A stretch of 64,000 nucleotides of DNA from the NCBI GenBank assembly GCA_021741205.1, contig JAIOYI010000006.1, positions 1 to 64,000 on the forward strand, given 5' to 3'. The translations under genes were made by a program, and so were the position numbers. This DNA is from Emcibacter sp. Lineage in GTDB: Bacteria; Pseudomonadota; Alphaproteobacteria; Sphingomonadales; Emcibacteraceae. Below, piece by piece: positions 11,969-14,885 of the stretch (the stretch's first letter is position 1; every line of letters starts with the position of its first letter). Under the pieces are notes generated by a model that saw only the letters and a program-made list of their open reading frames with translations, was not told the DNA's origin and made no database searches.

Positions 11969-12916
11969 ATGACAAAAACCCATCATACAAAAGTTTTGAT
12001 TATTGGTTCTGGGCCAGCGGGCTATACGGCCGCCATATATGCCGCACGAGCAAACCTTAACCCTATTGTTGTCCAGGGAATGCAACCAGGTGGGCAGTTA
12101 ACCATTACGACTGAGGTTGAGAACTATCCAGGCTTTGCAGAGCCCATACAGGGACCATGGCTTATGGAACAGATGGAGGCACAAGCCCGCAATGTTAATG
12201 CGGAGATCATAACCGATATGATCACCGATGTTAATTTTGATGAACGCCCCTTTGTTTGCACAGGCGAATCTGGTGATATTTATACTGGGGATACGGTTAT
12301 TATCTCAACGGGTGCTCAGGCCATGTGGCTTGGGATTCCCTCAGAACAGAAATTTCAGGGATTTGGTGTATCCGCCTGTGCTACCTGTGACGGTTTTTTT
12401 TACCGCAATAAAGAAGTCGTTGTGGTCGGTGGCGGCAATACAGCCGTTGAAGAAGCTCTTTTCCTGACTAATTTTGCTTCAAAGGTAACCCTCATTCATA
12501 GAAGAGATAAGCTCAGATCGGAAAAAATTCTGCAAGATCGTCTTTTTGCTAATGATAAAATACATGTTATCTGGGATAGTGTGATAGAAGAAATAGTTGG
12601 GGATGAACCCCCTATGGGCGGTGTTACAGGCGTTAAAGTGAAAAATGTAAAAACAAACGCCATTGATACGATCTCAACTTACGGCGTCTTTATCGCCATT
12701 GGACATAAACCCTCAACGTCAATATTTACGGGAAAAGTGAATATGGATCCAGAAGGTTACATTCTTAAGGCACCCGACAGCACAGCAACAAATATAGCGG
12801 GTGTTTTTGCGGCAGGTGATGTGACTGATAAAATATACAGACAAGCCGTAACCGCGGCTGGTATGGGCTGTATGGCGGCTCTGGAGGCAGAGGCTTTCCT
12901 TGCAGAACATCTTTAA
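11969..12916 (+). CDS. trxB: Thioredoxin-disulfide reductase
   Basis: GSGPAGYTAAIYAARANLNP, CATCDGFF redox motif, VVGGGNTAVEEALFLTNFASKVTLIHRRD. Confidence 0.96.
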   Translation: MTKTHHTKVLIIGSGPAGYTAAIYAARANLNPIVVQGMQPGGQLTITTEVENYPGFAEPIQGPWLMEQMEAQARNVNAEIITDMITDVNFDERPFVCTGESGDIYTGDTVIISTGAQAMWLGIPSEQKFQGFGVSACATCDGFFYRNKEVVVVGGGNTAVEEALFLTNFASKVTLIHRRDKLRSEKILQDRLFANDKIHVIWDSVIEEIVGDEPPMGGVTGVKVKNVKTNAIDTISTYGVFIAIGHKPSTSIFTGKVNMDPEGYILKAPDSTATNIAGVFAAGDVTDKIYRQAVTAAGMGCMAALEAEAFLAEHL

Positions 12917-13009: not shown

Positions 13010-13894
13010 ATGGATTGGGATAAGTTAAGAATTTTTCATGTGGTTGCCTCTTCTGGCAGCTTTACCCGTGCGGGTGAAAAATTATTTCTTAGCCAATCTG
13101 CGGTAAGCCGTCAGATTAAAACTTTGGAAGAAAGCCTCAATACAACTCTTTTTAATCGCCATGCACGGGGTTTAAGTTTAACCGAAGAGGGCGAAACGCT
13201 TTTTAAAACAGCGGAAGAAGTTATTTCAAAAATTCATATCACTGAACAGCTTCTTATAGAAGGTACGGATATTCCTCGCGGTGAATTAAAAATTTCTACC
13301 ACGCTAAGCTTTGGTTCTACTTGGATGATCAATAATATCCGAGGCTTTATTGAACGATATCCGGAAATCAATGTTCAGTTATTAGTTGCAGACAGTGATC
13401 TTGATTTAAATACCCGTGAGGCGGATGTGGCTATTCGGTTTCATCCAGCACATCAACTTGATCTTATTCAAAGGCAGGTGGCCGTATTCCATCATCATCT
13501 TTACGCCTCTCCTGAATATCTAAGCCGTAAAGGCCGCCCTGAAACATTGGAAGATTTGGATAATCATAATCTTATAACTTACGGCGATGGTGTCCAGTCG
13601 CCCACCAGAAATATTGATTGGATATTAGACCGAGAAAATGGCGAAAAAAGAACATCATTGCTTCGCATCAATAGTGTGGTTGGTGTTCTTCAGGCTATTA
13701 AATCAGGTTTAGGAATTGCTGCCATTCCTGACTATCTGGTACATGGTTCCGCTAATGTCGTCAGGATTTTAAATGATCTCGAGGGCCCAGCATTTCCCGC
13801 TTATTTGATTTATACGCAAGAAGGTCGTAAATCGCGCCGAATTATGGCCTTTAAAGATTTTATCATTGAACAATTCAAAAATGCGCGTTTCTAA
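13010..13894 (+). CDS. LysR-family transcriptional regulator, LsrB/VtlR-like
   Basis: MDWDKLRIFHVVASSGSFTRAGEKLFLSQSAVSRQIKTLEESLNTTLFNRHARGLSLTEEGE; located directly downstream of trxB, as lsrB is in rhizobia. Confidence 0.88.
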   Translation: MDWDKLRIFHVVASSGSFTRAGEKLFLSQSAVSRQIKTLEESLNTTLFNRHARGLSLTEEGETLFKTAEEVISKIHITEQLLIEGTDIPRGELKISTTLSFGSTWMINNIRGFIERYPEINVQLLVADSDLDLNTREADVAIRFHPAHQLDLIQRQVAVFHHHLYASPEYLSRKGRPETLEDLDNHNLITYGDGVQSPTRNIDWILDRENGEKRTSLLRINSVVGVLQAIKSGLGIAAIPDYLVHGSANVVRILNDLEGPAFPAYLIYTQEGRKSRRIMAFKDFIIEQFKNARF

Positions 13895-13932
13895 TATTTA
13901 AACAATCTAATTTTTATTAGACATGCATAAAA

Positions 13933-13949
13933 TGCAATGCTGCATTGCA
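13933..13949. promoter_or_regulatory. Perfect inverted repeat TGCAATGC-T-GCATTGCA, candidate LysR-type regulator binding site
   Basis: 8-bp perfect dyad with a 1-nt spacer, centred about 53 bp upstream of the predicted sRNA start. Confidence 0.6.
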
Positions 13950-13959
13950 ATAAGATACA

Positions 13960-13987
13960 TTGAAATTCTAAATAAAATCTCTATATT
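13960..13987 (+). promoter_or_regulatory. Predicted sigma70-like promoter of the sRNA
   Basis: TTGAAA (13960-13965), 16-bp spacer, TATATT (13982-13987). Confidence 0.5.
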
Positions 13988-13993
13988 AAACTA

Positions 13994-14161
13994 CAGATGT
14001 TGCGATGCAATATCACACTGAGATTTCTTCCCTAAATTATTTCAGTGATGCTATACTTATCTTTCTCCCTAAAAATAAGTATGGCTGTTTCATAGTCTCC
14101 CTAGACATGAAATCCTCCCTATATTTTGACTTGCCGGGTTTTTTAACCCGGCATTTTTTTT
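13994..14161 (+). ncRNA. Candidate trans-acting small RNA (AbcR-like, anti-Shine-Dalgarno loops)
   Basis: Hairpin 1 ATACTTAT/ATAAGTAT (14053-14082) with loop CTTTCTCCCTAAAA; hairpin 2 TTTCAT/ATGAAA (14088-14112) enclosing GTCTCCCTAGAC; single-stranded CCTCCCT (14114-14120); terminator 14133-14161. No plausible protein. 5' end estimated from the promoter. Confidence 0.75.
14133..14161 (+). terminator. Rho-independent terminator of the sRNA
   Basis: GCCGGGTT-TTTT-AACCCGGC followed by ATTTTTTTT. Confidence 0.92.
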
Positions 14162-14240
14162 GTTTTCCATTGTATTATAATGCACTGCAAAATTCTATGT
14201 ATTTGTGGACTTTATCATACAAAGGATGCATAGCTGTGGG

Positions 14241-14885
14241 TTAATCGGTATGATCCAGAATATCTTTCATATTCGAAAAAACTATCCCCCCAGCGATTGC
14301 AAGCTTTTTACCCTGTCCTCTCGTTGCATAGGCTAAAACCTCCATACCTGCGGCAACGGCACCTTGTACACCAGGAAGGCTATCTTCGATAACAAGACAT
14401 TGGGAAGGATCAACATTCATTTGATTAGCGACATATAAAAATAAATCGGGATAGGGTTTACCTCGCTTAACTTGGCTCGCGCTAAAAATATTGCCGTTAA
14501 AATAATGCTTAAGATGAGTCAGGCCAAGGGTGAAATCCATTTTTTCAGGAGAACCGCTTGAGGCCACACATATTTTTCTCTGCTGCCTAGACAATGCATC
14601 CAAAACATCTGTAACACCTTGCACAGGTCTTAAAGTATGTTCAAAGGCCGCAAAAGTTTTAACCTGCAATTTCTCTAGAAAATCGTAAGGCAGTTTATGA
14701 CCTAGCATGTCTTCTGCAATTTTAACAACAGAGGACATGGAAAGACCAACAAATTTTTCAACCACTTGGTTAATCGTGAGATTAAGGCCGCATTCGACAA
14801 GCGCTTGTCGTAATTCTTCATTAGCGATGGATTCGCTGTCAACCAGCACACCATCACAATCAAAAATAATTAATTCAATGGTCAT
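14241..14885 (-). CDS. HAD-family hydrolase (beta-phosphoglucomutase/phosphatase-like)
   Basis: LIIFDCDGVLVDSESIA, VASSGSPEKM, GKPYPDLFLYVA, VIEDSLPGVQGAVAAGM. Confidence 0.9.
   Translation of the reverse strand: MTIELIIFDCDGVLVDSESIANEELRQALVECGLNLTINQVVEKFVGLSMSSVVKIAEDMLGHKLPYDFLEKLQVKTFAAFEHTLRPVQGVTDVLDALSRQQRKICVASSGSPEKMDFTLGLTHLKHYFNGNIFSASQVKRGKPYPDLFLYVANQMNVDPSQCLVIEDSLPGVQGAVAAGMEVLAYATRGQGKKLAIAGGIVFSNMKDILDHTD

Follow-up and report, generated by a model that had tools for sequence, protein, structure and literature searches.

Does the gap between a LysR-type gene and a convergent hydrolase gene in this Emcibacter genome encode an independent small RNA (sRNA), and is any such RNA related to AbcR1, which rhizobia carry at the corresponding locus? 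LsrB/VtlR regulators and AbcR sRNAs are important in symbiosis and virulence. The window (the whole stretch of DNA analysed, 64,000 nucleotides) had been read in a first-pass annotation as containing, immediately behind the LysR gene, a candidate AbcR-like sRNA with anti-Shine-Dalgarno (aSD) motifs. The strings quoted in that annotation are all found in the sequence, and the boundaries that it gave, 13994 and 14161, are those of the unit delimited by R1, a covariance model built from genus sequences alone. The locus has the following features.

11969-12916, plus strand: trxB (thioredoxin-disulfide reductase), the 5' partner of lsrB; TIGR01292, 410.6 bits, above the cut-off; syntenic in relatives.
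13010-13894, plus strand: lsrB/vtlR orthologue, a LysR-type regulator of 294 amino acids; best PDB match 9hh1, in the order trxB-lsrB.
13923-13947, plus strand: predicted LsrB box, an ATGC-N7-GCA half-palindrome overlapping GCAA-N3-TG-N3-T (the latter at 13934-13946).
13960-13965, plus strand: putative -35 hexamer TTGAAA, from the sequence.
13982-13987, plus strand: putative -10 hexamer TATATT, a CTATAT-like element kept in relatives.
13994-14161, plus strand: candidate sRNA gene of about 168 nt, from the predicted +1 (13994-13995) to the end of the U-tract.
13996-14014, plus strand: hairpin H1 (GATGTTGC-GAT-GCAATATC), without aSD.
14016-14047, plus strand: hairpin H2 (CACTGAGAT...ATTTCAGTG), with an aSD-like loop, CUUCCCU, at 14027-14033.
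14050-14085, plus strand: hairpin H3, with the aSD loop UCUCCCU at 14064-14070; the stem sequence is variable, with compensatory changes.
14088-14112, plus strand: hairpin H4, with the aSD UCUCCCU at 14096-14102, partly within the stem.
14113-14127, plus strand: single-stranded UCCUCCCUAUAUUUU, comprising the invariant aSD core and an A/U-rich stretch (candidate Hfq site).
14132-14161, plus strand: intrinsic terminator, with a stem at 14132-14153 followed by U8 (T8 in DNA) at 14154-14161.
14241-14885, minus strand: HAD-family hydrolase, convergent to the sRNA.

The TTGAAA and TATATT hexamers are separated by 16 nt. The +1 position was deduced from two features, the -10 element and a start sequence, CAGATG, that is conserved, and the offset value of the LsrB box rests on this assignment. 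As the downstream HAD hydrolase gene is convergent, the sRNA cannot be its leader, and this candidate role was ruled out. The minimum free energy of 13980-14175 was -56.8 kcal/mol, versus -27.2 ± 3.5 kcal/mol for 200 dinucleotide shuffles, none of which was as good (z = -8.52). The two hairpins and three motifs of the first-pass annotation are real, but they belong to a larger set, in which four hairpins precede the terminator and the aSD stretches also number four: CUUCCCU in H2, UCUCCCU in both H3 and H4, and UCCUCCCU, which is single-stranded. Its hairpin 1 (ATACTTAT...ATAAGTAT) lies at about 14053-14082, within a longer stem, its hairpin 2 corresponds to 14088-14112 and its CCTCCCT to 14114-14120. 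The 5' half, with H1, H2 and its aSD-like loop, the -35/-10 pair and the LsrB-type box, had been overlooked.

A nucleotide search of 61 relatives retrieved the sRNA from 29 genomes, all from the same family, the Emcibacter/Kordiimonas group, in agreement with the earlier view that the host is not rhizobial. The trxB-lysR-sRNA order was kept in about 26 family loci, with the HAD gene next in most. Stems were variable and loops constant among the copies, with CUCCC kept in 21 of 24 H2 loops, 22 of 24 H3 loops, 16 of 24 H4 loops and all 24 single-stranded cores of the aligned copies. When 12 sequences from the genus were aligned with MAFFT, with no structure fitting, 99.6% of the pair cells were standard, and 8 pairs and 20 cells had changed on both sides; none of 500 shuffles gave a value as high, and slid controls were 34-46% paired. 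The main source of this covariation was H3 (both-side changes in 7 of 10 pairs). A class-wide alignment of 55 sequences (A4) displayed both-side changes in 43 of 44 pairs, a count biased towards structure, since this alignment was fitted to the model. The first-pass annotation had staked its sRNA reading in part on the conservation of the hairpins and CUCCCU motifs in related species; this conservation was found, and fold, conservation and covariation, all computational, sustain the reading. The sRNA gene at 13994-14161 is well supported as real and conserved by all the computational tests available.

The LysR-type protein encoded upstream scored 272 bits against 9HH1, the A. tumefaciens LsrB (PMC11975290), and 128 bits against the next PDB entry. 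Given this closest match to known LsrB and its position downstream of trxB, the neighbouring LysR is an LsrB/VtlR orthologue, as the first-pass annotation had it. The protein has no cysteines, and most of the orthologues at the fetched loci (L041-L120) have none or one, which distinguishes them from the LsrB proteins of Agrobacterium and Sinorhizobium, which sense redox state; the Agrobacterium protein uses C144 and C273 (PMC11975290), neither of which is present in the cysteine-free window protein. The window LsrB therefore probably does not sense thiol oxidation through cysteines of its own.

In the abcR1 promoter of S. meliloti, LsrB has a published site, GCAT-N3-TG-N3-T, at -61 to -49 (PMC8844928). 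The predicted window site, GCAA-N3-TG-N3-T, starts at -60, with one mismatch to this consensus; at the other ten lsrB-linked loci of the genus tested, the site is perfect and located at -60. The idea that trxB, the LysR gene and the sRNA constitute a single regulatory locus gains support from this box at the published distance, at the level of sequence only. Predicted boxes with no more than one mismatch were present at -66 to -58 in 21 of 26 lsrB-linked loci of the family, 12 of 13 paralogues and 37 of 71 loci elsewhere (shuffled means of 0.3, 0.2 and 0.9, respectively), about half of the distant loci having no box at this stringency. A wider palindrome, ATGC-N5-7-GCAT, which resembles the TGCA-N6-GCAT site of nfeR1 (PMC10746234), was found in 23 of 26, 12 of 13 and 51 of 71 loci, respectively. 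The mismatch in the window box (GCAA), together with the near-consensus -35 element, suggests that the window sRNA may be less dependent on LsrB than its relatives.

The genome contains a second copy of the sRNA, at C17:22145-22306 (L027:2146-2307, minus strand; 101.7 bits), with a perfect LsrB box, behind a yqgE/AlgH-like gene; a neighbour of this type recurs in several relatives (L021-L024, L031). A genome-wide scan for the LsrB box yielded 19 sites with up to two mismatches, versus 2 for a reversed-pattern control, and the sites inspected seem weak, except for those of the two sRNA promoters and one at C9:99656. This last site (C9:99656-99680; L190) is a third good LsrB-box-like palindrome, ATGCATAATACGCATTGCTGCATCG, with TATATAT downstream, 5' of an unidentified reading frame.

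The R1 model matched 13994-14161 with 166.7 bits, the window sequence itself being in the model. When the search, which was not conditioned on lysR, was extended to 190 sampled alphaproteobacterial genomes, R1 homologues were found in 63. Outside the family, an LsrB-type LysR gene precedes 24 of the 29 best R1 loci; one more follows trxB only, and four lie elsewhere. A wider model, R2, gave positives in 79 of the 190 genomes at E≤1e-7. The gap 3' of lysR in LsrB-type loci often contains two CUCCC motifs 16 nt apart and then a terminator (Rhodospirillales, Sneathiella, Minwuia, Kiloniella, Reyranella and others), often with a GATGTTGC...GCARCATC hairpin. R1 recovers loci of this kind, among them those of Oceanibacterium (66.6 bits) and Sneathiella (64 bits, three tandem copies). 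Sneathiella-type loci (L048:4983-5661, L051, L056) have three tandem sRNA copies behind lsrB. One trxB-sRNA-HAD locus (L134:1480-1900, minus strand) lacks lysR, and in this single case, inspected by eye, no LsrB box was visible upstream. At Rfam gathering thresholds, the window gave tRNAs only, the sRNA being unmatched, and 17 class loci gave a single match, to SorX, in a downstream copy; the ar15, ar14 and suhB models miss lsrB-linked sRNA genes at threshold, leaving a gap in Rfam.

The best reading of these data is a class-wide lineage of aSD sRNAs that LsrB would activate. In S. meliloti, LsrB activates both AbcR1 and NfeR1, which silence mRNAs by pairing their aSD sequences with ribosome-binding sites (PMC8844928, PMC10746234). 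As the regulator, its site and the spacing are the same here and the RNA carries repeated aSD loops, LsrB activation and the repression of multiple mRNAs would be the simplest interpretation. In the mechanism that we propose, and consider likely as a whole, a sigma70-type promoter belonging to 13994-14161 itself would drive the transcription of a trans-acting sRNA. The LsrB/VtlR-type regulator, the gene for which lies immediately 5', would bind the site starting near -60 and activate this transcription. The RNA would expose as many as four C/U-rich aSD stretches (three carried by hairpins, the fourth unpaired ahead of the terminator), which would pair with the Shine-Dalgarno regions of several mRNAs, repressing translation, probably with the assistance of Hfq, the gene for which is present in the genome; the A/U-rich stretch and U8 tail would fit Hfq. 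The window sRNA would be one of two LsrB-box copies in the genome and would belong to the class-wide lsrB-linked lineage, at the locus at which rhizobia carry AbcR1. Structure, conservation, covariation, synteny, regulator identity, box position, the paralogue and the Hfq gene were computed; expression, activation, Hfq use, repression and targets are what we infer from them.

The window sRNA could be a strict AbcR1 (ar15) orthologue by descent that has diverged past recognition by Rfam, a reading compatible with the proposed mechanism and differing from it on ancestry, which we consider plausible, though a little short of probable. It lies behind trxB-lsrB/vtlR, on the same strand, as AbcR1 lies behind trxB-lsrB in A. 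tumefaciens (PMC7486931), and its box position, predicted from sequence alone, is that of PabcR1 (PMC8844928). The trxB-lsrB/vtlR locus, an LsrB site at about -60, a sigma70 CTATAT -10 element, aSD loops, and tandem or dual copies are shared with AbcR1/AbcR2 of Sinorhizobium, Agrobacterium and Brucella, the tandem copies occurring in some of the relatives studied here. R1/R2 matches in Labrenzia/Roseibium (22-32 bits) coincide with sub-threshold ar15 matches, and suhB and ar15 share an Rfam clan (CL00108). Nevertheless, the likeness to AbcR seen in the first-pass annotation did not extend to the ar15 model (RF02345), which gave no match in 13850-14260 up to E 10. No ar15 match was obtained in 115 class genomes either, but the control genomes were equally silent, making this search uninformative as to absence. 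The AbcR M2 motif GUUCCC is absent from 13994-14161, which has three CUCCCU and one UUCCCU instead (motifs: PMC5461406), and the layout of AbcR is unrecognisable in an RNA of about 168 nt with four aSD stretches, as opposed to 114-121 nt and two stretches in AbcR; in the relatives, the aSD motif is often CUCCCA. Moreover, R2 also gives true suhB copies 24-37 bits, and the weak link to ar15 may therefore reflect a common hairpin-plus-CUCCC design. Position, box and weak similarity together suggest homology to AbcR.

The many-hairpin aSD layout of the window RNA resembles NfeR1/ar14 more than AbcR. At least three hairpins with repeated aSD loops, as in NfeR1, are provided by H2, H3 and H4, with the single-stranded core in addition, and the members of the NfeR1 (SmelA075/SmelA099) group likewise have several hairpins, each bearing its aSD loop on a variable stem, and are activated by LsrB through the TGCA-N6-GCAT site (PMC10746234, PMC3927594). 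NfeR1 differs in its locus and in its loops (CCUCCUCCC rather than CUCCCU), and its model (ar14, RF02344) gave no match in the window up to E 10. At a Phaeomarinobacter-like locus (L072:2714-2838), the RNA behind lsrB scored 33.4 bits with ar14, below the cut-off. The window RNA has an AbcR1/NfeR1-like build and placement, and probably an AbcR1/NfeR1-like action, while being a tested member of neither family. The SorX model (RF02784) gave 25.6 bits over the H4-core-terminator module, below its gathering threshold of 46.6, leaving H1-H3 uncovered. One Sneathiella tandem copy, the third of L048, passed this cut-off (50.4), which suggests that SorX and the lsrB-linked sRNAs are members of one wider group.

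The class-wide lineage may include the AbcR1 of rhizobia as a divergent branch. We suggest only tentatively, as a somewhat doubtful extension, that one ancestral lsrB-side sRNA predating most of the alphaproteobacterial order splits was the ancestor of the present lsrB-linked RNAs and, through divergence, the source of AbcR1, perhaps also of SorX and NfeR1. If this were the case, the circuit from LsrB to an aSD sRNA would be an ancient, class-wide form of translation control, and the original LsrB would have been cysteine-free and would have responded to a signal different from thiol oxidation, redox sensing being a rhizobial addition.

The closest Rfam score of the window RNA, obtained over a region comprising H4, the core and the terminator, was that for suhB/MmgR (ar8, RF00519), which at 35.9 bits is below the threshold of 41. 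The RNA might accordingly be an ar8 (suhB/MmgR/Sis) sibling relocated next to lsrB and acting mainly through its single-stranded CCUCCCU; ar8 RNAs, which are frequently multicopy, carry a UUUCCUCCCU core (PMC12559287), and the window RNA shares with suhB/MmgR/SisA-D a weak hairpin, the single-stranded CCUCCCU core, the terminator and the multicopy state. We consider this unlikely: the genome has its own suhB, at C18:137359-137433 (L121:1501-1575; 70.7 bits, above the cut-off), which R1 does not recover, and the suhB model does not extend to the three additional 5' hairpins H1-H3 of this LsrB-linked RNA, two of which carry further aSD loops. The better score of this second locus rules out the window RNA as the canonical ar8 orthologue. 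The true suhB/MmgR sits between methylmalonyl-CoA-epimerase-like and trpS-like genes, and the N-formylglutamate amidohydrolase neighbour reported for most species is not visible there.

It is highly improbable that the sRNA is a 3'-UTR fragment of the lysR mRNA, or its terminator, rather than an independent sRNA: it lies on the lysR strand, 100 nt past the lysR stop codon, but has its own -10/-35 elements and LsrB box, paralogues with the same box and structure occur behind yqgE, away from lysR, and one genome (L134) retains the sRNA with no adjacent lysR. A short coding gene, read as a leaderless ORF from 13997/13998, was rejected and has almost no likelihood. An ATG does lie within a few bases of the predicted +1, and the frame stays open for 42-57 codons in some relatives, but the ORF has 12 codons in the window and anything between 2 and 57 in the relatives, while the stems covary.

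The LsrB/AbcR work found in the literature concerned rhizobia, Agrobacterium and Brucella, and in the papers searched, mostly those available without subscription, the lineage is undescribed outside rhizobial relatives. Our results suggest that the regulatory circuit of rhizobia and Brucella is present across much of Alphaproteobacteria; with an unannotated, widely conserved counterpart in other, mostly free-living members, a lineage-specific circuit would become class-wide, and it would be possible to investigate what a cysteine-free LsrB senses.

In a target search covering 400 genes of 464 kb, aSD pairing was unspecific, and the matches serve as leads only. Among the top predicted pairings, with the same status, are four nuo-like genes (L173) and an SDR gene (L172:2522, minus strand), in which AAAAAUAUAGGGGGAG would pair with the UCCUCCCUAUAUUUU core. 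The L173 region (C18:120001-140000) contains several complex I (nuo)-like genes with a strong Shine-Dalgarno sequence and long complementarity to the aSD motifs.
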